A DNA stretch of 64,000 nt, from the NCBI RefSeq assembly GCF_006546655.1, contig NZ_VIAQ01000019.1, forward strand, positions 124,001 through 188,000. Reading direction: 5' to 3'. Of the stretch, positions 8,073-64,000 are shown in pieces (the first letter of the stretch is position 1; each line of letters opens with the position of its first letter). Source of the DNA: Methanolobus vulcani. Lineage in GTDB: Archaea > Halobacteriota > Methanosarcinia > Methanosarcinales > Methanosarcinaceae. Below the pieces are notes generated by a model. That model did no database searches. It was not told where the DNA came from and worked only from the letters and a program-made list of their open reading frames with translations. The translations under genes and the position numbers were made by a program.

Positions 8073-8168
8073 TACTTATTTTCAACTATTCAAAACTCAT
8101 TACAGATATGTTTTGATTCACCTGGATGATGAAGGGTTTATTAGAGTTATTGCATATCGAAATTAACA
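8058..8168. repeat. Direct repeat copy 1: tRNA-Thr tail plus downstream region
   Basis: This 111-base segment contains the last 15 bases of tRNA-Thr, the intergenic spacer, and the last codons of the minus-strand kinase at 8163. It aligns without gaps to 14867-14977 (constant offset 6809) with about 12 mismatches counted by eye; the first 15 bases are identical, and similarity continues more weakly into the kinase coding region. Confidence 0.85.
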
Positions 8169-11100
8169 GTTTCCCGAATCAATCGGTATTGTAAAAGTGA
8201 AATTACTACCTTTCCTCACTTCACTTTCAACATGTATATGACCACCGTGCATCTCTACCAGTTTCTTAACCAGAGCCAGGCCAAGGCCGGTACCTTCATA
8301 CCTTCTGGTGCTCGATCCGTCTATCTGAACAAATGGTTCAAAGATTTCCTCAAACCTTTCTTTTACTATACCTATGCCCGTGTCATATACCGAGACCAGA
8401 AGAGCATCGTTGCTACCTTTTACCTCTATCTTTACCGAACCTCCGCTGTCTGTGAACTTAATGGCATTCTCTATAAGGTTATACAGGATTTCTTTGAGTT
8501 TCTGGCGATCCACAGCAACAACACCGAAATCTCGGTCTATAATAGTATTGATTGTAATTTTTTTCTTTTCCGCTTTTGCAGAAAGGATATTATGGATTTC
8601 CGGGAATAACTCCTGTATATTAACACGCCGAATGTCGAGTGAATCCAGACTTCCACGTTCTACATTTACAAAGTCGAGTAATTTGTTGACTATATTATGA
8701 AGCCTATGTCCACTCTCGTTAATGTTGCACAGGTACCTCTTCTGGGGTTCGCTGAGTTTTTCAGTATCTTCGAGCAGCACATCCGAAAAACCTATCACCG
8801 ACGCCAGGGGTGTCCTGAGTTCATGGGTAATGTTGTTTAACATTTCATCCATCATGCGGTTGGAGTTGTCTGCAGCAAGTTTAGCATACAAAAGAGCTTT
8901 TTCTGCTTTCACTCTAGGACTGATGTTGACCAGTGTCCCTATAAAGTGATGTGGTTTGCCACTATAAGTGTTAATAAAGTATTTCCCCTTGGCAGAAACC
9001 CATATCCATTCTCTGGATTTGTGTTTCACTCTGAAATCGATGCTGATCATTTTATCAAGGGTATTTCTGTTGCTTTCAATGGCTTTGAAAACAAGCTTCT
9101 TGTCGTCTGGATGAACTATAGATAATAACAAATCTTCAAGATTTTCAGGCAAATCTTCGGGTTCGTATCCTATCATTGCGTATGCAGTGAGATTCGCATA
9201 TAATCTGCCGCTTTTCAAGTCAAGATCCCAGAAACCGAACTCTGAAGCTTCCATCGCAAGGGACAGCTTTTCCTCACTTTCCCTAAGTGCTTCCCCGGCC
9301 ATCTTAATTTCTGTAATATCCCTTCCATTTATAACTATACCGTCTACCTCACCTTTTTTATTGATATAAGGGAAATAAGTGATATCAGCAAAACATTTGC
9401 CTGTTTTTGGGAAATCAAACCACTTCTGGTACTTTACGGTTTCACCTTTTAAGCACCTGTCATACAGATCCCTGATTTGGTTATTAAACAGATCATCCCC
9501 CCAGAATTCTGCTGCCGCATGCCCAACCAGTTCCTCCTCCTCTTTTCCAGAGACCCGCCCATAGGTGTCATTGACAATACTGTACCTATAATTTGTATCT
9601 ATAAGGGAGATAAGATCAGGAGTCGAAGAAACGATTTGTTTGTATCTTTTCATTTCTTCCTCGGCTTGCTTTCGCTCGGTAATATCCCTGCACACACAAA
9701 AATGCATTTTCTGCCCGTTAACAACAGATACGTTTACACTGATTTCAACATCAAAAAAACTACCATCTTTGCGACGGTGAGACGTCTCAAAACGATAGGA
9801 ACTTTTATGACGATGATCGACATACTTTTTCTGCGTTTCTTCCTGTGTCCATTGGGTGGCCCAATCCCAAACGTGTAGTTGCAGGACTTCCTCCAAGGAA
9901 TAACCAAGCATATCCGCAAATTTGCGGTTTGCTTCAAGTACCTCACCATTCCAGGTAACAACAACTATTCCATCGTTGGACTGCTCAAAAAAGATTTTTC
10001 GCCGTTTCGTCTCTTCAGCCAGTTTCTCTTCCGCCTGCCTGCGCTCGGTAATATCAGTGAAAGCTCCCGCCATCAGGAGTGGTTTTCCATCCCTGCTCCA
10101 CTGAACAACCTTTCCATGATCCAGTACCCATACCCATCCTCCTTTCTTGTGCCGCAAGCGCAACTCGCATTCATAGTATTCCAATTCCCCTGCAAAGTGC
10201 CTTTCCAAGGCCTTTTCTGTCTTTTTCTTATCTTGTGGATGGATGAGGTCTGCCCAAGTCTGGTAATTTACCGGAGCTAGCTCTTCAAGTGTGTACCCTG
10301 TTATCTGTGCCCACCGGTCATTAAATACAGCCTCACCGGTTTGCACATTCCATTCCCATGTTCCGGCATTCGTGCCTTCAATAATGTTCTTTAAACGCTT
10401 ACGATCGACAACTTCCAACACGACATCCATCAGCAGGGTTATCTGAAGTATATCATCTTCACTATACTCCGATTCTTTGTTGGCCACCCCGACAACGGCA
10501 ACTATCTTATCGTTCCTGAATACGGGGATGGTCATGTACCTGCCAAGTTCGACATGTCCTTCAGGGAACCCTTTTCTCAATGGGTGATGGACATTGAAGT
10601 CATTAAGGATAACTGGTTTACGCTGGCGGACCGCTTCTCCCCAGAACCCAGCTTTCTCAAGCTTGCAAATGGTATGCGAATCGGTGATGGCACATTCCTC
10701 CATGACACCCCCGGACCATGAGTTCAGGCTGAATTCCTTTTTTTCCTCGTCATAATAATAGATATAGCCAATTTTGCTTCCGGTAAGCTTGATGGATTCG
10801 GCAAGTGCGGTATCCAGGAATTCGCGAACCGTATTGAATTTTCGTCGCAGTATGTCGACAAGACTTTCCAGACGCTCCTCTCTTTGCTTAAGTTTCTCTT
10901 CTGCCTGCTTACGTTTGGTGATATCCCTTATGAAAACAAAAAATCCCGGACCTGCTTTTTCAGAGTATGTCGAACTGACCTCAACATCCAGTATCCTGCC
11001 TTCTTTTGTGCGAAGTTTGGTCTCGAAACGGTCCATTCCGTTCTCCTTTATTTTAAGGAGGCGGGTTGCTGTCTGTTCAGGGGACTCGTTTACTTCTACA

Positions 11101-11993
11101 TCATTTAGCCTCATGCCAAGCAGTTCCTTACGTGTATAACCGAGGAGGCTGCAGTACGTCTCGTTCACCTCAAGATACCTGCCATTCATATCCAGATGGC
11201 TATAGCCGTCCATGGAAGTCTCGATAGTAGTCCTGTATAGTTCCTCACTTTGGCGAAGTTTCTCCTCAGCTATCCTTTGATCGGTTATATCCTCTCCCAC
11301 ACTGGCAACACCTGATATTCGGCCATTTTCATCCTTAAAGACGGCATTATTCCAGGCAATAATTTTTCTGTTTCCGTCTTTTGTGACAATCGCGTTCTCA
11401 TTGTATGATGGGATATCTTCAGTTTCAACTATCTTGAAGAAGATATTTTTTATCTCATGAACAATCTCCGCAGGCAGGAAAAGTTCAAACCAATCTTTAT
11501 TCAGAACCTCTTCTTTTTTCCATCCGGTCAGGCCGAGTAAAAAATCATTACAAAAAACAATGTTTCCTTTCGTATCCAATATCAGGCCCACAAGCTGAAT
11601 ATTTTCGAGAATGGCGTTAAAACATTTTCCAGATTCGCACAGATTTTTTCCTATTTTTTTTGGTTCGGTGACATCAGTAACGATACCCCTCACTCTTAAA
11701 GGAACATTATTTTCATCACAGGTAATCTCCGAGTGTTCACGTATCCGGCGAATGCTCCCGTCGGGTCTTAAAATGCGATACTCTGCTGATGCTTCCCCTT
11801 CCAGTTCTCTTTTTTTTGCCGCAGCCTGTACAATATTTACGTCATCAGGGTGGACATATTGGTACCAAAGACCATTTTTGTTTACAAGCTCTCGCGAATC
11901 CAGGTCGAATATATCCTCAAATGAAGGGCTGACATGAAGTATCTTAAGATCAGGATATGTTACAGACCAAACCACCACACCCCATAATTCCAA
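8163..11993 (-). CDS. Soluble multi-PAS/GAF sensor histidine kinase 1
   Basis: 1276 residues with no membrane helix, so a cytoplasmic sensor. Domains in order: three PAS (~1-115, 120-240, 245-365), a GAF (~380-540), four more PAS (~545-660, 665-785, 790-910, 915-1035), then HisKA with the phospho-acceptor histidine in THELRTP (~1050-1115) and HATPase_c with N box NLIENAIKF, DTGIGI and GTGLGLALVKK (~1155-1270). Signal unknown. The ORF can begin at a TTG at 11993; the frame stays open upstream to 12074 without ATG or GTG, so the true start is unclear. CheW and a chemoreceptor lie directly upstream on the same strand. No response regulator is nearby. Confidence 0.9.
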   Translation of the reverse strand: MELWGVVVWSVTYPDLKILHVSPSFEDIFDLDSRELVNKNGLWYQYVHPDDVNIVQAAAKKRELEGEASAEYRILRPDGSIRRIREHSEITCDENNVPLRVRGIVTDVTEPKKIGKNLCESGKCFNAILENIQLVGLILDTKGNIVFCNDFLLGLTGWKKEEVLNKDWFELFLPAEIVHEIKNIFFKIVETEDIPSYNENAIVTKDGNRKIIAWNNAVFKDENGRISGVASVGEDITDQRIAEEKLRQSEELYRTTIETSMDGYSHLDMNGRYLEVNETYCSLLGYTRKELLGMRLNDVEVNESPEQTATRLLKIKENGMDRFETKLRTKEGRILDVEVSSTYSEKAGPGFFVFIRDITKRKQAEEKLKQREERLESLVDILRRKFNTVREFLDTALAESIKLTGSKIGYIYYYDEEKKEFSLNSWSGGVMEECAITDSHTICKLEKAGFWGEAVRQRKPVILNDFNVHHPLRKGFPEGHVELGRYMTIPVFRNDKIVAVVGVANKESEYSEDDILQITLLMDVVLEVVDRKRLKNIIEGTNAGTWEWNVQTGEAVFNDRWAQITGYTLEELAPVNYQTWADLIHPQDKKKTEKALERHFAGELEYYECELRLRHKKGGWVWVLDHGKVVQWSRDGKPLLMAGAFTDITERRQAEEKLAEETKRRKIFFEQSNDGIVVVTWNGEVLEANRKFADMLGYSLEEVLQLHVWDWATQWTQEETQKKYVDHRHKSSYRFETSHRRKDGSFFDVEISVNVSVVNGQKMHFCVCRDITERKQAEEEMKRYKQIVSSTPDLISLIDTNYRYSIVNDTYGRVSGKEEEELVGHAAAEFWGDDLFNNQIRDLYDRCLKGETVKYQKWFDFPKTGKCFADITYFPYINKKGEVDGIVINGRDITEIKMAGEALRESEEKLSLAMEASEFGFWDLDLKSGRLYANLTAYAMIGYEPEDLPENLEDLLLSIVHPDDKKLVFKAIESNRNTLDKMISIDFRVKHKSREWIWVSAKGKYFINTYSGKPHHFIGTLVNISPRVKAEKALLYAKLAADNSNRMMDEMLNNITHELRTPLASVIGFSDVLLEDTEKLSEPQKRYLCNINESGHRLHNIVNKLLDFVNVERGSLDSLDIRRVNIQELFPEIHNILSAKAEKKKITINTIIDRDFGVVAVDRQKLKEILYNLIENAIKFTDSGGSVKIEVKGSNDALLVSVYDTGIGIVKERFEEIFEPFVQIDGSSTRRYEGTGLGLALVKKLVEMHGGHIHVESEVRKGSNFTFTIPIDSGNC

Positions 11994-24702: not shown

Positions 24703-24719
24703 GGGGGGATCTAAGCTCA

Positions 24720-25952
24720 ATGAGCAATAATTTTGAGTACCTGAATGGAGCCATTAATATTTCAGCACCATTGCCGGATATTTTGCAGGAAAAAGGGTTA
24801 GACGCATTCTATGAAAACCCCAATAATGCAAAGTGGGGAGATGTTCTCTGCCGTGTGCTCTATCATGAATCCATTCATTTCTGGCAATTTCTTGCCTCTG
24901 GCTATATAGCCAATCTGATCAGTGAGGAATGGAAACGCCTGGATCATTTTGAACAAATGAACGAGATAATCCCTAAAAGTGATTTTTTAAAGAACTTTAG
25001 CCAGCGTCCTGAAGACATCCCATTTTCGCCTTATGAGCTTACCGAATGCTGGGCCAGGTATTGGGATGTTCATACTCGCAGTCCTGCACGAATAATACAG
25101 GAAGAAGGAATTGAAATTGGCGAAGCTAAAACCTATAATAATAGACTGGCTGGCAATTATTCATGGATAGAATATGACACAATAATGCAACAGGGTGAAG
25201 ATTCTCACCTCTATGCTCAGCCCTACAGATGGCTGTTGGAAAAAGCTTCCGGCAATAGTTATCTTATCGCACTTCTGTTTCCAGTAATAACCCACGCATC
25301 ATTTGGCAGCCCTGACCCGGTTAGTGTTTTCACATCTTGTTTTGAACGTGCAACAGAGGAAGATATAATAAAGGAGATAATGGAACATCGCTCAGGTAAT
25401 ATTAATTTTGACTGGATCAATAGCTGGACATTCGCCTGGGACAAAATTGTGTTACCAACACTTGAAGAGAAAAACTTACCTGGTTTTACAAGCGGTTTTG
25501 ATGTAATTCAAAGAGGAACATTGGGAACTCATCCAATTTACCGCGAATATCTTGAAAAAGCACAGGTTTTATGGAAATTTGTGAAACTGGCAAATATGTT
25601 TGATACTTCTGGCGAAGATCAAAATGATATATCTGATTATTCCATGGACGAAATCGAAAACCATGCAATTAAAGAAATGGCTGCAAACAACCCCTGGATC
25701 ATTTTTGCTCTGCCGGGTCAGCCACACTACCGGAATTTATTAGGTCACTACCTATCGCCTCCGATTATAAGCTTCAAGAATATCACATATTCAACTAATA
25801 AAGCCACTAGCATGTGGGAATCAAAAGACAAAATGGATGAAACACATGAAACTTTTGAATCGAAAGCAAATGAACTGGAAATTAGAATCAGGCGATTTCG
25901 TGCAGCAGAAAAAGCTCAGTCTCTGGGACTGCCACTCAATGCATTTGAATAA
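24720..25952 (+). CDS. HExxH metallopeptidase-like protein of unknown family
   Basis: 410 residues, soluble. A zincin-type motif is seen at residues 49-53 (H-E-S-I-H, in YHESIHFWQ), and an E109 in ELTECWARYWD about 56 residues later could be the third zinc ligand, as in gluzincins. The rest is helical and rich in Trp, with a Ser/Asp-rich C-terminal third. No signal peptide, so it acts in the cytosol. Possible roles are a protease effector or a non-peptidase zinc protein. It follows the 140-residue partner by 17 bases. No ATPase or nuclease that would complete a known defence system is adjacent. Fold and activity are inferred from the motif only. Confidence 0.6.
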   Translation: MSNNFEYLNGAINISAPLPDILQEKGLDAFYENPNNAKWGDVLCRVLYHESIHFWQFLASGYIANLISEEWKRLDHFEQMNEIIPKSDFLKNFSQRPEDIPFSPYELTECWARYWDVHTRSPARIIQEEGIEIGEAKTYNNRLAGNYSWIEYDTIMQQGEDSHLYAQPYRWLLEKASGNSYLIALLFPVITHASFGSPDPVSVFTSCFERATEEDIIKEIMEHRSGNINFDWINSWTFAWDKIVLPTLEEKNLPGFTSGFDVIQRGTLGTHPIYREYLEKAQVLWKFVKLANMFDTSGEDQNDISDYSMDEIENHAIKEMAANNPWIIFALPGQPHYRNLLGHYLSPPIISFKNITYSTNKATSMWESKDKMDETHETFESKANELEIRIRRFRAAEKAQSLGLPLNAFE

Positions 25953-55930: not shown

Positions 55931-56635
55931 ATGATTTTTAAGAGTGCAGCATCGTTCAAATGGCTTTATTCCCGGGAAATTACGAAAGTAAAAGACCTTG
56001 CACGTGTTGTACAGGCAAGTTATCTCTGGAACGAGGAAAATAATTTCAAGGAGAAGCTTGTCGCCCTGCGTACAGGAGATTCATGGAATAATAACCTGAG
56101 AGATACTTCACGTGCTGCATCCGTTCTTGCAATGACAGGAAATGTATTTTCTGAAACTGGAAAATGGATTCTTGAAAAGCAAAATGATGGTTCCTGGAAT
56201 GAAGATGTCTATGACAGCACATACGCTCTTGCAGCACTTGCGGACCTTGGGTTCTTTAACCCTGAAGGATGCAGATGGCTTATTGATAATTACGGGGAGA
56301 AATGGGAACATCCCGGAACAACAGCCCTGATAATCACAGCCCTGATCAAACAGGGAAAACTCGGAAACACGGACGAGTATGAAGAATTCATTGAAGAGAA
56401 AGCCAGATGGATAATCTCACGAAAAGAACAGAACAATTCATGGAAAACACCTGCAACCAGCAACCTTGTTATCCAGTCACTGATGCTTGCAGGCCATAAG
56501 GATGAAGTCAGTGAATCAATGAAATGGATTCTTGACCAGATGAATGATAAAGGTTCGTGGGGAAAAGATGGCGGAGACGTCAATACGACTTCCCTGTCAC
56601 TAATCACACTACATGAATACATGAACAGCCAGTAA
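55931..56635 (+). CDS. Squalene cyclase-like alpha-toroid repeat protein
   Basis: 234 residues with repeated QW-type motifs: WILEKQNDGSWNEDVYDSTYALAALADLG, WKTPATSNLVIQSLMLAG, WILDQMNDKGSWGKDGGDVNTTSLSLITL, the alpha6 prenyltransferase/squalene-oxidase repeat barrel. Too short for a full cyclase (usual ~600 residues) and no DxDD catalytic acid motif seen, so perhaps a binding protein. It starts 24 bases after nrdD and converges with kinase 4. Confidence 0.75.
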   Translation: MIFKSAASFKWLYSREITKVKDLARVVQASYLWNEENNFKEKLVALRTGDSWNNNLRDTSRAASVLAMTGNVFSETGKWILEKQNDGSWNEDVYDSTYALAALADLGFFNPEGCRWLIDNYGEKWEHPGTTALIITALIKQGKLGNTDEYEEFIEEKARWIISRKEQNNSWKTPATSNLVIQSLMLAGHKDEVSESMKWILDQMNDKGSWGKDGGDVNTTSLSLITLHEYMNSQ

Positions 56636-58633
56636 TCACTTGGCCGGGAGAAGTACATGGATCGTGGTGCCTGAGCCTTCCTTGCTCTCTGCCCATATTG
56701 AACCGTTGTGAGCTTCTATGATCTTTTTACATATATACAGACCAAGACCATTGCCACCGTATTTACGAGTTGATGAACCGTCAACCTGATAGAATCTGTT
56801 GAAGATATTAGGCAGATTCTCTTCGGAAACACCTATTCCTTCGTCAGCTATCATGACGTGTATCGTGTTATCACCCTGAAGTACACCTGTTATTGTGATC
56901 TTACCGCCATCATGCATGAACTTGATGGAATTATCGATGAGATTTATAAAAACTTCCTCCAGATAATTCAGGTCGCCCTTTATCAATGGAATGTCAGATG
57001 AGACGGACTTTTCCACAAAATGCTTCTTACGTTTAATCTCAGAATCCCGATTATATAATGCAGAATCAATGACTTCCGATATCCTCAGAGGTAAAAATGT
57101 GTATTCTACACTGCCACCCTCGGTAATACTAACATATAATAAAGAATCGATCAGTCTTCTGAGTCTTTCGGAACTGAACATCATCTTTTCAACTGCATCT
57201 TTCTGCTTCTGGCTCAGTTCCCCAAGAGCACCTTCATACATCAACTCGCTGTAACCCTTGATTGGTATAAGTGGAGTCTTTAACTCATGACGGAGATTGG
57301 AAATAAACTCATCCTTCATGCGATCAAGAGATTTTAATTCCTCATTTGCCTTTGCAAGATCTTCGGCATAATGATTCAGTTCCCTTTCCGCTGCCTTGCG
57401 CTCAGTGAAATCTTCAACAACGCAAACACCACCCATGAATTTTCCTTCCTCGGATACCACCGGACTGAACTCTGCTTTGATGGGGATTACCTTATCAGAG
57501 AAGGGTGATTTGAAGTCATCTTCATATTTTGCAGGAATACCTGCAAGAACCTGCTTTATCGCTCTTTTCATACTATGATCGTTACTGAAAGACTCTATCA
57601 GATTGAATCCTATGACCTGAGAGATAACCTGGCCTTCAGGAACACCCAGGATACTAACAAGGATATCATTACACTGAGTGATCACTCCATTCTCATCAAA
57701 GTGGAAAATACCAAGAGGTGATTTCTCGAACATCATGCGATATTTGTTCTTTGCAATGCTTGTGAGTCTCTCTTTCATTTTCCTCTGTGAAATATCGTTA
57801 ATGATAGCTCCGTGGAAAATATCGCCTTTATACCTGGTAGTTGTAATAGCCATTTCTATAGGGAATTCCGTATCATCCTTGCGCAAGCCAGTAACTTCAA
57901 TAATATTGCCAACAACAGGAGATTTGCCAATGGAAATAATTTCTTCCCAGCCTTCATGCGCTTTACGGTAGCGTTTTGGCATAATCGTAGTAATGTTCTC
58001 CCCTATAATTTCATCTCTTGTGAAACCAAAAAGTGTGGTTGCCTTGTGATTCCAGAATGTGATATTCCCGCGATAATCAGAAAAAACAAGAGCATAAGGA
58101 ATTGAATCAAGGTGTTTGAATAATTTTTCAATATCCCTTAACATTTCATTTTCAAAATCATTTTTATTCTGGATATTTGCACATGAAAGAAGGACTGCTT
58201 TTTTAGAAGAACCACGGTCAGTTAAAAGACTGGTGTTGATAAGAAAAGTTGATATTGAGCCGCCTGAATCTTTGAACTGAAGCTCAGTAGAAGATGATAA
58301 GTTTGCTTCATCTGAATTTTCCTGAAAAAAAGATGAGATGAAAGATGTTGCATAGTCCGTTTCTTCTTCGGGAACACAAAGTTGGATGAAATCTTCATTT
58401 GGTGTGCCGTTTCCAAAGCCGAAGTGTTTCTGTGCCTTTTTGTTGGCCATGAGAATGCAGTTGTCCTCATCAACTATCAGTATAAACTGATCGAGCATAT
58501 CATAGAATACCTGTGAATTCCCAATATCCGAAAAGGAGATTTCACTTACTAATAAAGGCAATGATTCCTCTATGTCGGATGAGTGACTATTGTTGTCATT
58601 CTCAAAATCAAGCATTTCTTTGTTCACGACCAT
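56636..58633 (-). CDS. PAS-domain sensor histidine kinase 4
   Basis: About 665 residues from the ATG at 58633 (M-V-V-N-K-E-M), preceded by AAGGTGTATGG; an ATG at 58660 lies upstream of that site. Three PAS domains (about 40-165, 180-295, 300-420), a coiled linker, HisKA with NLRHELKTPLIPIKGYSEL, and HATPase_c with NLIDNSIKF, DEGIGVS and GGNGLGLYICKK. No membrane helix. Not closely similar to kinases 1-3. No response regulator adjacent. Confidence 0.9.
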   Translation of the reverse strand: MVVNKEMLDFENDNNSHSSDIEESLPLLVSEISFSDIGNSQVFYDMLDQFILIVDEDNCILMANKKAQKHFGFGNGTPNEDFIQLCVPEEETDYATSFISSFFQENSDEANLSSSTELQFKDSGGSISTFLINTSLLTDRGSSKKAVLLSCANIQNKNDFENEMLRDIEKLFKHLDSIPYALVFSDYRGNITFWNHKATTLFGFTRDEIIGENITTIMPKRYRKAHEGWEEIISIGKSPVVGNIIEVTGLRKDDTEFPIEMAITTTRYKGDIFHGAIINDISQRKMKERLTSIAKNKYRMMFEKSPLGIFHFDENGVITQCNDILVSILGVPEGQVISQVIGFNLIESFSNDHSMKRAIKQVLAGIPAKYEDDFKSPFSDKVIPIKAEFSPVVSEEGKFMGGVCVVEDFTERKAAERELNHYAEDLAKANEELKSLDRMKDEFISNLRHELKTPLIPIKGYSELMYEGALGELSQKQKDAVEKMMFSSERLRRLIDSLLYVSITEGGSVEYTFLPLRISEVIDSALYNRDSEIKRKKHFVEKSVSSDIPLIKGDLNYLEEVFINLIDNSIKFMHDGGKITITGVLQGDNTIHVMIADEGIGVSEENLPNIFNRFYQVDGSSTRKYGGNGLGLYICKKIIEAHNGSIWAESKEGSGTTIHVLLPAK

Positions 58634-58937
58634 CCATACACCTTTGTATCCGACAAACAAACTGTGAAAACTTCATTAACATATCTTAGATACCAACTAA
58701 TTATATTGGGAGTATAATATATAATAGTTAGTGTTTGTTAATTATAGTATATAAACTGTAATAAAATATAGGAACTTGCCATACACATATTTGAATCTAC
58801 AAACGCCTTATTATTGCCATCCCATTTCGAGCAAAATTAAATGATAAGATAGAATCCAGAAATAGGCAAAATGAACTGTATTCAGAGTAGCATTTATAAT
58901 CAAAAAAAAACTATTGAAGTACACATGGTGACCTTAG

Positions 58938-59369
58938 ATGAGTGAAAATCCAATAAAATATCATGAGGACTCTAACACTTACATTACCCGAAAAAACAGC
59001 TATTTTGAAAAGGAAATCAATATAGACGGGAACCTCATAGTCGGGCAAGGTTCCAATTTCTGGAAAGACATAAATGTTAAAGGAGTACTGGAACTTGGAA
59101 AAGGTACTTTTGTAAAAGGCAATGTCAGAGCAGATGAAGCTATTATAGGTGCCAGATCTGAGATTAATGGAGACGTTGAAGTTGCTGGCGATCTTAAGAT
59201 ATTTGACTCTGTAAAAATAGAGGGATCAGCAATTGCCGGAGATGATATGCACGTACGTCCCGGATCGAAAATTGGCTTTGCAAAAGCCAGCAGCATAATG
59301 GAACTCGTTGGTAAAGTCAGCATTAAAGAGATAGAGTCCGGAACAAAAGTAATTGTGCGTTCGGAATGA
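58938..59369 (+). CDS. Short bactofilin-like beta-helix protein
   Basis: 143 residues built of about ten short strands with Gly/Asn turns (IDGNLIVGQGSNFWKDINVKG, LELGKGTFVKGNV, IGARSEINGDVEVAGDLKIFDSVKIEGSAIAG). It lacks the hydrophobic insert of the 2682 protein and is about half as long, so only one beta-helix block. GGTGACC lies 6 bases before the ATG. Confidence 0.75.
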   Translation: MSENPIKYHEDSNTYITRKNSYFEKEINIDGNLIVGQGSNFWKDINVKGVLELGKGTFVKGNVRADEAIIGARSEINGDVEVAGDLKIFDSVKIEGSAIAGDDMHVRPGSKIGFAKASSIMELVGKVSIKEIESGTKVIVRSE

Positions 59370-59377
59370 ACGCTTAA

Positions 59378-60136
59378 TCAATGACCCTGTTCTTTTAATA
59401 GAGATTTCAATATATGGTCACGAAGCTGATTTGCTTCGGGGCTTGTCCTGTCCCTGGGTCTTGGAAGGTCAACATTGATTATTTCCTTGATCTTTCCAGG
59501 ACGGGCACTCATCATCACAATTTTATCTGCAAGGAAAACTGCTTCGTCAACACTGTGTGTTACAAAAAGAATCGTAATATTCTTTTTTTGCCAAATATCA
59601 AGCAATTCCTGCTGGAGTATGTTACGTGTCTGGGCATCCAGCGCACCAAAAGGTTCGTCCATTAAAAGCACTGCAGGTTCGTTTGCAAGTGCTCTTGCAA
59701 TAGCAACCCTCTGTTTCATACCACCTGAAAGCTCATATGGATAACTATCCCTGAATTGCTGAAGGCCAACAAGCTCAAGGTATTTTTCTCCTTTAACGAT
59801 AGCATCCTTCTTTTTTTCGCCACTCATCTGAGGACCGAATATGACGTTATCAATAACCGTTTTCCACGGGAAAAGTGAGTATTCCTGAAAAACCATACCC
59901 CTATCGGGGCCTGGCGAATCAATCTTGGTGCCATCCAGATAAACTTCACCGCTATCTGGTTTATCAAGACCTGAGATTATCCTCAAAAGTGTAGTCTTAC
60001 CACATCCGGACGGACCGATAAAACAGACAAAATCCTTGTCATCAACTTCAAGGCTTACATTATCCAGCGCCAGTGTTGTTTTATCTTCATCCTTTGTGAA
60101 CTTGCGTGAAACATTTGTTACTTTAACACTGCCCAT
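59378..60136 (-). CDS. ssuB: ABC transporter ATPase of the SsuB/TauB type
   Basis: 252 residues: Walker A GPSGCGKTT, signature LSGGMKQRVAIARAL, Walker B LLMDEPFGALDAQT, VTHSVDEAV. Nitrate/sulfonate/taurine-type importer ATPase. Last of the three minus-strand transporter genes. Overlaps none; the permease stop is adjacent. Confidence 0.9.
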   Translation of the reverse strand: MGSVKVTNVSRKFTKDEDKTTLALDNVSLEVDDKDFVCFIGPSGCGKTTLLRIISGLDKPDSGEVYLDGTKIDSPGPDRGMVFQEYSLFPWKTVIDNVIFGPQMSGEKKKDAIVKGEKYLELVGLQQFRDSYPYELSGGMKQRVAIARALANEPAVLLMDEPFGALDAQTRNILQQELLDIWQKKNITILFVTHSVDEAVFLADKIVMMSARPGKIKEIINVDLPRPRDRTSPEANQLRDHILKSLLKEQGH

Positions 60137-60965
60137 TCAGATCACCACACCTTTGCGCCATTTAAGAAGCTTGCCGTCAATGTAATATCTCAGCAGCCGG
60201 TCAATGAGAAGTCCAAGGAAACCAAGGATCAGCATATACACAAGCACAAATTCCATTCTGTGAAGATCATAAAAATGCCACATCTGATAACCAAGGCCGT
60301 TTCTGCTAACTCCAAACATCTCAGCAGCAACAAGACACATCCATCCAACACCCATTGCTATCCTTATACCTGCAGCAATAGAAGGAAGAGCTGAAGGAAG
60401 AGCTACATAACGTATGAGTTCAAAATTGGTGTTACAACCCAGTACTTTTGCCGCTTCCACATACACTTTTGATACACTTTTAAAACCTGTAAAAGTATTG
60501 ATCATTATAGGGAAAACTGCACCGATGAATATCAGAAAACCTGCTGCAAATGGATTCAGACCTATCCATATGATCGCAAAAGGAATCCATGCAAGCGGGG
60601 GGAATAGGACGTATTATTTCTATAATAGGGTCCACGATACGGTCAATTGTACGGAACCACCCCATAATCATACCTATAGGAATCCCGATAATAAGAGCTG
60701 CAATAAGACCTATACTAAAATGCATCATACTGTAAAGGAAATCAACCACCAACATCGGAAGTTGCAATTTCGCACCCATTATAGCCAGACTTGAATCCCT
60801 GGATAGAATCTCAACCAATGCACCGGCCACATCCGTAAAACTTGGCAGATAGAACTTGTTTCCTACAACATAAACTGATATTATCTGCCAGAGAACTATT
60901 GTAGAAAATATAGATATGATTTCTACGCTTTTCTCTTTTAGTATCTGGATGTGTGTTTTTACCAT
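60137..60965 (-). pseudogene. ssuC: SsuC-type permease split by a one-base insertion in a G6 tract
   Basis: Two overlapping minus-strand frames together encode one BPD-transporter permease of about 275 residues: the first (60965 down to ~60600) starts after GGAGGATAC and reads through IIEIIRPIPP, then turns to nonsense (ACMDSF..); the second frame continues correctly with AWIPFAIIWIG.. if one C (plus-strand G) is removed at 60597-60602, a run of six G. All else, including the family EAA-type loop (EAAKVLGCNTNFELIRYVALP), is intact, so the break is recent, a sequencing error, or a reversible slip. Confidence 0.85.
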
Positions 60966-61051
60966 GTATCCTCCGATAGTTAGAGATAATTAGACTCCGA
61001 ACAGAGATAGAAATGTCTACTTATTATATAAGTTAGTATCAAAAAAAAAGA

Positions 61052-62080
61052 TTATTGATCCAGAGCCTCATAGAAGCTCAGATCAAATATATCGTCCTGC
61101 GTGAGAGGCTCACTTATGTATCCAAGTTCATACTGAACCTGTGCATAGTCCACTGTTGAGTTGACTATGAGGCTTGGATCTGATATCCATGAACCATCCC
61201 AATCTGTAAGTGATTTGTTTACCAGTTCAAGACCCAGGTCTGGATAAGCATCAGCATAAATCTGTGCTGCTTCACCAAGGTTCTCTGAGTTATATTCAGT
61301 TGCACGAACATGGGTTTCAACTATCTGCTGTACAATGTCCGGGTGCTCTCTTATGAGATCTCCGCTTACAGCAACCACACAGCATGCATGATTCTGAAGC
61401 ATTTCTCCTGAAGATACAACTGATCTGCCAGTGCCTTCACTCTCGATAATTGTTGGTGCTGGATGAGGAAGGAATACTGCATCTACCTCACCTGCTGTAA
61501 GAGAGGTTATTGCAGGTCCAGAGCCCATTCCTTTGATTTCCACATCATTATCAGGGTCGATTCCATTCTCTTTCAGCCAGTTCCTTAACAGAGTATCCTG
61601 AATGGTTCCTGCAGGGAAAGTTGCTATGGTAAGTCCTCTGAGGCTTTCCGGACCCTCATAAGAAAGATCGGTTTTGAGTACAAGGTCTGAACCCTGAATT
61701 TGAACAGCAGCTACAATCTTTGCATCAAGACCATTTGCAAGAGCAGCGATAACAGGAGCTGCACCAACATATGCCACATCGATCTCATCTGCAAGCATAG
61801 CCTGCATCTCAGGTGCGCCTGTGGCAAATTCCTTGTCATCGATAGATACTATTCCATAAGGTTCAAGGTCTTCAAGCCACCAGCCTTTTTCCCTGGCAGT
61901 CATATATGCAATCTGATGTGTACTTGGCTGATAACCAAAAGTTAATTCAGTAATGGCATCTGCCTGCTCTTCTTCCTGATCAGCAGTGTCCTCTGTGCAT
62001 CCTGATACGAATACAGCAAGGACAAGTGCAATCACAAGAAATAAAGTAGAAGCTAATTTAATTGTCTTTGTGTGATTCAC
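61052..62080 (-). CDS. ssuA: ABC transporter substrate-binding lipoprotein (SsuA/NrtA type)
   Basis: 342 residues. GTG start at 62080 after AGGTGGTAAT; signal peptide and lipobox (VFVSGC, cysteine near residue 28). Periplasmic-type binding fold of NMT1/SsuA family (FGYQPSTHQIAYMTAREKGWW, FATGAPEMQAMLADEIDVAYVGAAP, HPAPTIIESEG). Substrate (sulfonate, nitrate or similar) unknown. It precedes the damaged permease and the ATPase; the regulator gene starts divergently ~150 bases away. Confidence 0.88.
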   Translation of the reverse strand: MNHTKTIKLASTLFLVIALVLAVFVSGCTEDTADQEEEQADAITELTFGYQPSTHQIAYMTAREKGWWLEDLEPYGIVSIDDKEFATGAPEMQAMLADEIDVAYVGAAPVIAALANGLDAKIVAAVQIQGSDLVLKTDLSYEGPESLRGLTIATFPAGTIQDTLLRNWLKENGIDPDNDVEIKGMGSGPAITSLTAGEVDAVFLPHPAPTIIESEGTGRSVVSSGEMLQNHACCVVAVSGDLIREHPDIVQQIVETHVRATEYNSENLGEAAQIYADAYPDLGLELVNKSLTDWDGSWISDPSLIVNSTVDYAQVQYELGYISEPLTQDDIFDLSFYEALDQ

Positions 62081-62229
62081 ATTACCACCTATAATAATGT
62101 TAGATAATTTGTTTGCATGAGCCTATATATTATATATATTTCTACAATCCGCAAGATATATACCCTAATGAGGATAATGATGAGATTATATTTGCCCAAC
62201 TGGGCAGCTGATATGCAGGGGGATAAAGA

Positions 62230-62751
62230 ATAAGCACTGTAGATAAGATAATAGATGCTGTTTTTGAATCTGATGACGATTTTAGGAGAATCCTTTCTAC
62301 TACTATAAAAGAAGACTTGAATTTGAATATGGCGGAATTCGCTGAGCAAGCTGGCGTTCCTGCCAGTACACTCTATAAAATCATGTCAGGAAAAAGAGAA
62401 CCTAATGTCAAGACATTGAGACAAATTATCAAAACAGTAAAAAGACTGGAAGGTTCGGAAAAGGGAGAATTCATTGCGGTAATCGCTGCAAGACCGGTAC
62501 TTGACAACATAAGTGAAACTAAAAGAAAAATATGCGGAAACCTTTGCACTATTAGAGAGTATTCTGCGACTTCCATGGAAGAAGCTATTATTGCAGCTGT
62601 GCGTGCCGAAAGAGATGGAGCAAAAGCCCTTGTATGTGCACCTATAGTAAGCCCTACAGTAGAAAAAATACTGAGGATACCTGTTGCAACCATTATGCCA
62701 AAGAACAGTCTCTTTGATGCTATCGAACTTGTAGCTAAGAAAATTAGCTAA
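62230..62751 (+). CDS. HTH regulator with PrpR-like C-terminal domain, no ordinary start codon
   Basis: About 173 residues if counted from an ATA at 62230. An N-terminal helix block (VDKIIDAVFESDDDFRRIL) and a Cro-type HTH (NMAEFAEQAGVPASTLYKIMSGKREP) are followed by a Rossmann-like sensor domain (AERDGAKALVCAPIVSPTVEKI..PVATIMPKNSLFDAIEL) reminiscent of PrpR_N. The open frame has no ATG, GTG or TTG before residue 30 (TTG at 62317 or ATG at 62329 would cut the HTH). AGGGGGAT lies about six bases before ATA 62230. Either ATA starts translation, the gene is mutated, or the shorter form is used. Likely regulates the divergent transporter. Confidence 0.65.
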   Translation: MSTVDKIIDAVFESDDDFRRILSTTIKEDLNLNMAEFAEQAGVPASTLYKIMSGKREPNVKTLRQIIKTVKRLEGSEKGEFIAVIAARPVLDNISETKRKICGNLCTIREYSATSMEEAIIAAVRAERDGAKALVCAPIVSPTVEKILRIPVATIMPKNSLFDAIELVAKKIS

Positions 62752-62807
62752 CTCAGAGCATAACAAGATTTAAAACTAAAAATAAAAAAGGTAAAAAGAG
62801 TTATCGG

Positions 62808-64000
62808 TTATTTCCCGATCAACTCTTTAACTGCTTCTATTGCTTCAGCAGCCTTTGCCTGTGCTATTTCTACTGTCCATCCACCTGCTGTGAACAAATA
62901 TGCGGCTCCACCTACAGCTGCAAGACCAATTGCTCCAAGTACATACCAGATAGTACCGGATTTCTCAAAAACCTCATAGGTTGTTGTAAGATCTCCCACC
63001 TGAACCTCATAGGTGCCAGGTTCTTCTTCTTCGTGAGTGAACTCAACAGTTGTAGAATCACCAATGGAAAGTGTTATTGTCTGAGAATCTACAACTACGT
63101 CATTTACAGCAAGTGTAACATTGTAGGAACCTTCGGCAGTACCTGTGTTAGTAACATCAGCAGTGATTGTTGCTTCCTGTCCCTGTTTTATCTCTTCGGG
63201 GAGTATTTCCAGGTTGCTGAAGTCGAATTCTGCAGCCAGTTCATTTACTTTGAAATCAATCTCTGCATCATTCATGCCAGACTTTGTAGCCCCAATTGTG
63301 TGAGTTCCTGCTTCAGTTGAAGTATAAGTGACACTTCCATCACTATCAGTAGTACCTATTGAACTACCATCAAATGTCACTGATGCACCTGATATAGCAT
63401 CGCCACCTATTGAAGCCAAGACATAGATCGTCATTGATGAACCCTCGTACACATCATCTGGAGATACTTCAATGCTCATGGCACGGGTCTCATCATCCTC
63501 GTCGATGACCTCGATGTCCTCTGAACCTGTTGTATAACCTGACTTTACAGCAGTTATTTCAAATTCTCCTGCCTCTGAAGGTGAATATTCATAAGTACCG
63601 TCATCATCTGTGGTTCCAAGAGTTGTACCATCCAGTTTAATGGTTGCATCGGCAATGGTTGCACCACGTGCAGTTACAGTTATCGTAACGTCATCTCCCA
63701 TGGCAACTGTAGAATCACTAAGCTCAATATTTAAAGTGTAGGATGTTGAACTTGTTTCTTCAACGTAGGGATAATACCTGAGTGTACTTGAATCTGCAAC
63801 CATTATTCCTACTTCACCCATCAGTGTGATATCCTTGTCTTTGCTAAGAGAGATAGAATCCTCGTTCTCCATTACAATTGAAGTGTCACTGAAACTTGTA
63901 ATTTCCATTTCATCGTAACTATCTCCATCTTCAAGTTCAAGATAGTCATCAGATATCTGGAATATACCCTCTATGAAAACAGCATTGGATTCTCTACCAG
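62808..64000 (-). CDS. S-layer protein, C-terminal part, truncated by window end
   Basis: The frame is open from the window end to a TAA at 62808. It begins inside an S-layer duplication domain tail (REGRESNAVF-type, YLELEDGDSYDEMEITSF, LRYYPYV), continues with two carboxypeptidase-like or Ig-like units (DGTYEYSPSEAGEFEITAVKSGY and DGSVTYTSTEAGTHTIGATKSGM), then a CARDB-like block (ITADVTNTGTAEGSYNVTL), and ends with a membrane helix (WYVLGAIGLAAVGGAAYLF) and a basic/helical tail. A major surface protein exported by an N-terminal signal beyond the window. Start lies outside; protein numbering unknown. Confidence 0.85.
   Translation of the reverse strand, partial: GRESNAVFIEGIFQISDDYLELEDGDSYDEMEITSFSDTSIVMENEDSISLSKDKDITLMGEVGIMVADSSTLRYYPYVEETSSTSYTLNIELSDSTVAMGDDVTITVTARGATIADATIKLDGTTLGTTDDDGTYEYSPSEAGEFEITAVKSGYTTGSEDIEVIDEDDETRAMSIEVSPDDVYEGSSMTIYVLASIGGDAISGASVTFDGSSIGTTDSDGSVTYTSTEAGTHTIGATKSGMNDAEIDFKVNELAAEFDFSNLEILPEEIKQGQEATITADVTNTGTAEGSYNVTLAVNDVVVDSQTITLSIGDSTTVEFTHEEEEPGTYEVQVGDLTTTYEVFEKSGTIWYVLGAIGLAAVGGAAYLFTAGGWTVEIAQAKAAEAIEAVKELIGK

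Follow-up and report, generated by a model that had tools for sequence, protein, structure and literature searches.

A singleton frameshift in the permease gene of an ABC importer of Methanolobus

In one Methanolobus genome the permease gene of an ABC importer is interrupted at a run of six identical bases, GGGGGG on the plus strand and C6 on the coding strand of the gene. Is this interruption a sequencing artefact, a fresh mutation, or one state of an on/off switch for the uptake system? All three options were offered in the original prediction. Artefact and fresh mutation both survive the analysis presented here; the switch fares badly, since the Methanolobus relatives lack such a run. The assembly totals 2.92 Mb in 20 contigs and is 99.99% complete; the window, which is the whole stretch of DNA analysed (64 kb), is part of its contig C16.

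The broken permease and its operon

The break falls mid-gene, at codon 122 of a read-through protein of 275 residues, and beyond the run the native permease sequence continues in the other frame down to 60137 (Table 1). When the read-through protein was used as a query against 27 Methanolobus genomes, this genome returned two adjacent matches in different frames (residues 1–129 and 121–275). The ORF map and this search bear out the claim that an SsuC-type permease is split at the run with the correct protein resuming in the other frame, and the ORFs of the ATPase and the binding protein, with their Pfam matches, agree with the claim that both are undamaged. As far as the assembled sequence goes, the frame break is genuine, and it is the sole multi-frame case among 181 orthologues shared with the relative G023 on contig C16.

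Table 1. Features of the importer locus (positions in the window)
Feature	Position	Strand	Evidence or comment
G6 run	60597–60602	+	Site of frame break, codons 122–123 of first permease frame
Disrupted ABC-importer permease gene (BPD_transp_1; taurine/nitrate/sulfonate group)	60137–60965	-	PF00528, 3.2e-24 with read-through protein
First open frame, 161 aa (residues 1–122 native permease; last 39 foreign, no match to relatives)	60480–60965	-	Alone, no Pfam match
Second listed open frame, 122 aa, internal ATG 60505; C-terminal part	60137–60505	-	Partial Pfam match
Intact importer ATPase	59378–60136	-	PF00005, 2.2e-33
Intact substrate-binding protein (NMT1_2 / SsuA-like, GTG start)	61052–62080	-	PF13379, 9.7e-33; SsuA_fam 159.5 bits, cut-off 163.5
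Divergent HTH protein, conserved operon neighbour	62317–62751	+	PF01381, 4e-08; gene order
Conserved convergent neighbour ORF, 143 aa, outside importer	58938–59369	+	No NCBIfam match

The name SsuC is a superfamily label only. At that level it stands, since the read-through permease passes the PF00528 gathering score (86.1 bits against 26.4). As an equivalogue name it fails: the permease scores below the NCBIfam cut-offs for SaoP (165.7 bits, cut-off 295), TauC (136.4, 342), NtrB (130.9, 209.05) and SsuC itself (100, 347). The binding protein is weakly similar to solved structures, among them a putative exported protein (3qsl, 2.6e-08), a taurine binder (6ssy, 4.2e-08) and proteins of the nitrate/bicarbonate type.

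Binding protein, permease and ATPase are found in that order on one strand at 97 of 104 loci (24 from Methanolobus and 80 from a wider set, duplicates included). At 65 of the 104 the trio is preceded by the HTH gene, on the other strand, a count that scores loci cut by contig ends or with short flanks as having no HTH gene. The HTH protein may regulate the importer operon; its listed start is TTG, and the true start may lie upstream. In the six nearest genomes it is more conserved than the binding protein (92–98% against 82–92%, over the parts held). Identity of the ATPase to the five nearest genomes is 95.6–96.4%. An Rfam search of 56000–64000 found nothing at gathering score, and no riboswitch. 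A plasmid search matched 60 records, and among the matches listed (5) the ATPase part alone was matched. Cover for the broken permease by a paralogue was rejected: a search of the genome found, besides the two halves, only two adjacent permease-like frames of 23–33% identity (C1:212391 and C1:213026), which we take to be osmoprotectant-type permeases.

The consequences for the protein should be severe. The EAA loop couples the permease to the ATPase, and the 161-aa product ends before the EAA-like loop, which by its motif we place in the second frame at about residues 170–190. The truncated product presumably lacks the membrane segments that follow as well as the loop for coupling to the ATPase, and an importer with a broken permease should be non-working. 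No purine-rich ribosome site was seen by eye ahead of the internal ATG at 60505; the leader there is pyrimidine-rich, which makes reinitiation unlikely.

As a run, the G6 is unremarkable. GGGGGG occurs three times in the window and is thus rarer than the 12.2 occurrences expected from shuffles, and genome-wide there are 76 distinct G/C runs of at least 6, of which 44 are inside long open frames. Another of the three, at 24703–24708, lies directly ahead of the listed ATG of ORF 24720–25952; the third, at 9497–9502 (minus strand), is within an intact PAS/kinase-like ORF (8163–11993).

The site in relatives and the age of the break

A comparison of strains had been suggested alongside the original prediction. 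It was made here with other species, none of the genomes being of the same species, and it found the frame whole in 24 of the 26 other Methanolobus genomes and no broken homologue. In those 24 the read-through protein search returns one open frame with no stops; the other two, which are 93% and 70% complete, yielded no permease gene. Among the nearest named relatives, permease identity is 95% for Methanolobus vulcani, 89% for M. bombayensis and 81% for M. profundi. In two Methanolobus genomes (G007 and G017) the N-terminal half of the permease is longer by about 36 codons, the same span taking 933 nt there and 825 nt otherwise.

Inspection by eye of the 24 Methanolobus orthologues found Pro-Pro at the site, with third bases that vary. 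Codon 122 is CCC only here and is CCT, CCA or CCG in all 24 relatives, and a C run longer than 4 was seen in none of them. The permease is present in Methanosarcina and Methanohalophilus contigs as well, and a wider scan took in the best 80 of 95 relatives, 14 of the 80 being genomes of the first Methanolobus set. Over codons 120–125 of these 80 loci the longest C run is 2 in 26, 3 in 41, 4 in 5, 5 in 6 and 7 in 2. Since the gene is in frame where the run is C5 or C7, the run is tolerated there without a break. None of the 80 loci has a broken permease, in a scan whose need for a good match may favour whole genes. Full-length homologues thus span the break and none is itself broken, and neither the 24 orthologues nor the best 80 of 95 wider loci gave any sign of a lineage that keeps the C run as a switch.

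How old is the break? We estimated dN/dS by the Nei-Gojobori method for the permease against five sisters and the outgroup G001. Against the sisters the values are 0.047–0.057, compared with 0.027–0.054 between sisters; against the outgroup the value here is 0.076, compared with 0.049–0.061 for the sisters; and 3' of the break it is 0.018–0.034 here, compared with 0.005–0.028. These values reach or barely exceed the range of the sisters, a difference too small to establish that constraint is relaxed. Private residue changes number 4 here and 2, 1, 6, 4 and 5 in the sisters. An old pseudogene was accordingly rejected, neither dN/dS nor private changes showing decay. With no clear loss of constraint and dN/dS far from neutral, any break must be recent, and the reading frame has served until recently, or still does.

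Frame breaks elsewhere in the assembly

Could the assembly be generally prone to frame errors? Of 181 orthologues shared with G023 on C16 (163 kb), 177 are covered in full by a single frame and 3 in part, and only the permease is split. The comparison with G025 (179 orthologues) flagged the permease and an artefact in a 5' leader, and 2 orthologues were covered in part. Queries in the reverse direction flagged the permease, one leader-like case and one shadow case, and a sister-against-sister comparison gave no flags in one direction and two in the other, which were once more the leader-like case and the shadow case. A class II aldolase flag was rejected as a gene break because by eye the change sits in the 5' leader, and the flag at C16_209866 because it is an antisense shadow ORF, presumably overlying the mtrF–mtrG junction. 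On C14, 285 G023 orthologues (259 kb) and 284 G024 orthologues gave five flags, three of which proved on inspection to be shadow ORFs or junctions and not gene breaks. The other two (T23_102123 and T24_132530) were dismissed by position alone, lying within the first 12–53 residues; so, at the same place in the listed ORF, were C16_245201 and six rows with C14 as query. The count of breaks leaves out T24_86018, a flag close to the 3' end when G024 was compared with G023, and the cases of partial coverage (three G023, two G025). On this basis, with some flags dismissed by position alone, the permease is the only credible frame break among 466 G023 orthologues on C16 and C14.

Homopolymers tell a similar story. 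The single-frame alignments on C16 and C14 (166 kb and 272 kb) contain 376 A/T runs (288 of 6, 78 of 7 and 10 of at least 8) and nine G/C runs of 6; runs within such alignments are unbroken by construction, and the point is the scarcity of breaks. For these two contigs, orthologue frames and intact homopolymer runs led us to reject a generally bad assembly. The evidence of the two contigs argues against an assembly that is generally homopolymer-prone and is still compatible with a local error.

Four G/C runs of at least 6 have a break-like pattern (the permease, C16:15934, C4:67518 and C15:278582), 28 runs classed as "other" lying outside this examination. The G6 at C16:15934 was rejected as a gene break, as it belongs to two overlapping genes, which we take to be cas3 and cas6. 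At C4:67518 the pattern looks, by eye, like the natural end of a gene. At the G9 of C15:278582 (L206:1501–1509) the open frame of a prophage gene appears to change; the downstream frame matches tail completion/Neck1 (phrog_5), and the neighbours are head-tail adaptor, tail terminator and major tail genes. This G9 may break the prophage gene, and a further G run with an apparent change of frame could reflect trouble in calling G-run length, or slippage.

Elsewhere, the gene of a multi-PAS protein has a G11 (C10:179–189; L060:179–189) a few bases ahead of its ATG, and a change in the length of that run could alter the translation start. Copies of a transposase element with a frame of about 390 codons are present in two relatives (L225 and L227–L231 in G020; L232, L233 and L235–L240 in G022), and the sole copy scanned, L239, matches DDE_Tnp_1. 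Their leaders carry back-to-back mononucleotide runs, C8–C16 then A in G020 and T then G9–G12 in G022, whose lengths differ between copies within one genome. A slippage-tuned transposase is possible.

Explanations of the break and the importer's cargo

The locus is a singleton frameshift of a known, ordinary kind. Three things are plain observations: the assembly has a frame break, the relatives examined lack it, and the other operon genes are intact. The explanation that we favour, at slightly better than even chances, is a frameshift allele in which the C run of the permease recently gained one base by slippage, with no regulatory role. A lineage-specific synonymous change of codon 122 to CCC would have created the C run first, and replication slippage would then have lengthened it by one base. 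Slippage of this sort is on record: in mutation accumulation lines homopolymers are described as an ordinary source of one-base indels, most clearly without mismatch repair, and in mismatch-repair-deficient Vibrio lines single-base indels rise with homopolymer length (PMC5854121).

The same picture would be produced by a wrong base call. A sequencing or assembly error, in which the run is called one base too long and the gene of the living organism is intact, is a substantial possibility that we rate at somewhat under even chances. A singleton break at a homopolymer in a 20-contig draft is what such an error would give; purifying selection acts on both permease halves, the importer trio is kept at 97 of the 104 loci, and the apparent frame change at the C15 G9 run is a second case. 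The dN/dS, at the high edge of the sister range, also counts among the points against mutation. In the GeneTack survey of frame transitions in 1106 genomes, singletons are described as recent indels or errors, and for BLAST-validated singletons a sequencing error is expected in preference to a true indel (PMC3711429). The permease is like the singletons of that account in being confined to one genome, with full-length homologues spanning the break and none broken, and no feature found here sets it apart from those that the survey's account of singletons describes. Against an error stand the 88 A/T runs of at least 7 inside single-frame alignments on two contigs, unbroken by construction as they are, and the lack of another credible break among the 466 orthologues, some flags having been dismissed by position.

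Is the permease, and with it the importer, switched on and off by slippage in the run, as at a phase-variable contingency locus? This is highly improbable. The homopolymer is inside a gene whose frame is kept on both sides and whose partners are intact, and G/C runs of at least 8 occur in 23 of 27 Methanolobus genomes. As in the homopolymer phase variation surveyed in PMC2831843, a one-base change in run length shifts the reading frame; unlike the cases that the survey describes, the run here is short, mid-gene, unconserved and known from one assembled sequence. At six bases the run is short, and long open frames contain 44 of the 76 runs of its class in the genome. Moreover, 14 of the 20 runs of at least 8 from three relatives lie in transposase leaders (6 of 7 in G020, 8 of 9 in G022 and 0 of 4 in G021), and a G8 in G022 (L234), in a gene read as an ABC ATPase, is in frame. 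The break is far from the gene start. C runs longer than 4 are absent from the 24 genus orthologues, the 8 of the best 80 of 95 wider loci with C5–C7 (C5 in 6, C7 in 2) are all in frame, and broken (off) alleles recur in none of the 24 or the 80 (14 genomes shared).

Least probable of all is recoding, in which slippage on the C run, by ribosomes or by RNA polymerase, would still yield full-length permease: +1 frameshift errors have been measured at CCC-C proline sites in E. coli (PMC8643618), making a trace of full-length permease by +1 slippage possible, and both halves are under purifying selection, but the site is unconserved in the same relatives, no ribosome-binding-like element was seen by eye upstream, and the 73 nt 3' of the break have no unusual structure when folded without pseudoknots (z -0.34; 71 of 200 shuffles fold as well). 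With no conserved site and no stimulatory structure, programmed frameshifting was rejected. A combined reading, with the C run acting as a slippage switch or as a low-efficiency recoding site that leaves coenzyme M/sulfonate uptake off in part of the population while biosynthesis is kept, is very doubtful; were switching or recoding real, the cofactor importer of an archaeon would contain a contingency locus.

What would a cell lose with the importer? Coenzyme M starvation of Methanosarcina acetivorans changes a set of genes that includes ssuA and ssuC, named there as subunits of a transporter specific for coenzyme M, and the authors read the change as increased transport (PMC12068725). Methanohalophilus RSK is annotated with SsuABC (PMC6491703). 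The operon in the window shares with these methanogen SsuABC systems, as described in the two papers, the order binding protein, permease, ATPase; it differs in its broken permease, and its likeness to the M. acetivorans genes comes through the name and through the operon in Methanosarcina contigs. By analogy, it may be the same importer as the coenzyme M transporter of M. acetivorans. A literature search on the coenzyme M transporter as an ABC transporter in Methanosarcina returned no paper. Two markers of coenzyme M biosynthesis score above cut-off in this genome, cysteate synthase (588.8 bits) and MMP16/ComF (527.4 bits), so that the organism probably makes its own coenzyme M. Uptake could therefore be dispensable and be lost in culture, and if coenzyme M is the importer's cargo, loss of the permease could be tolerated under the recent-mutation explanation.

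The case matters mainly for annotation, which should mark the gene as frameshifted and leave the cause undecided; the gene gives no ground for inferring a phase-variable transporter. Should the allele prove real, the isolate would be a naturally occurring null mutant for an importer that is widespread in methanogens and may bring in coenzyme M, and could be used to test what that importer does.
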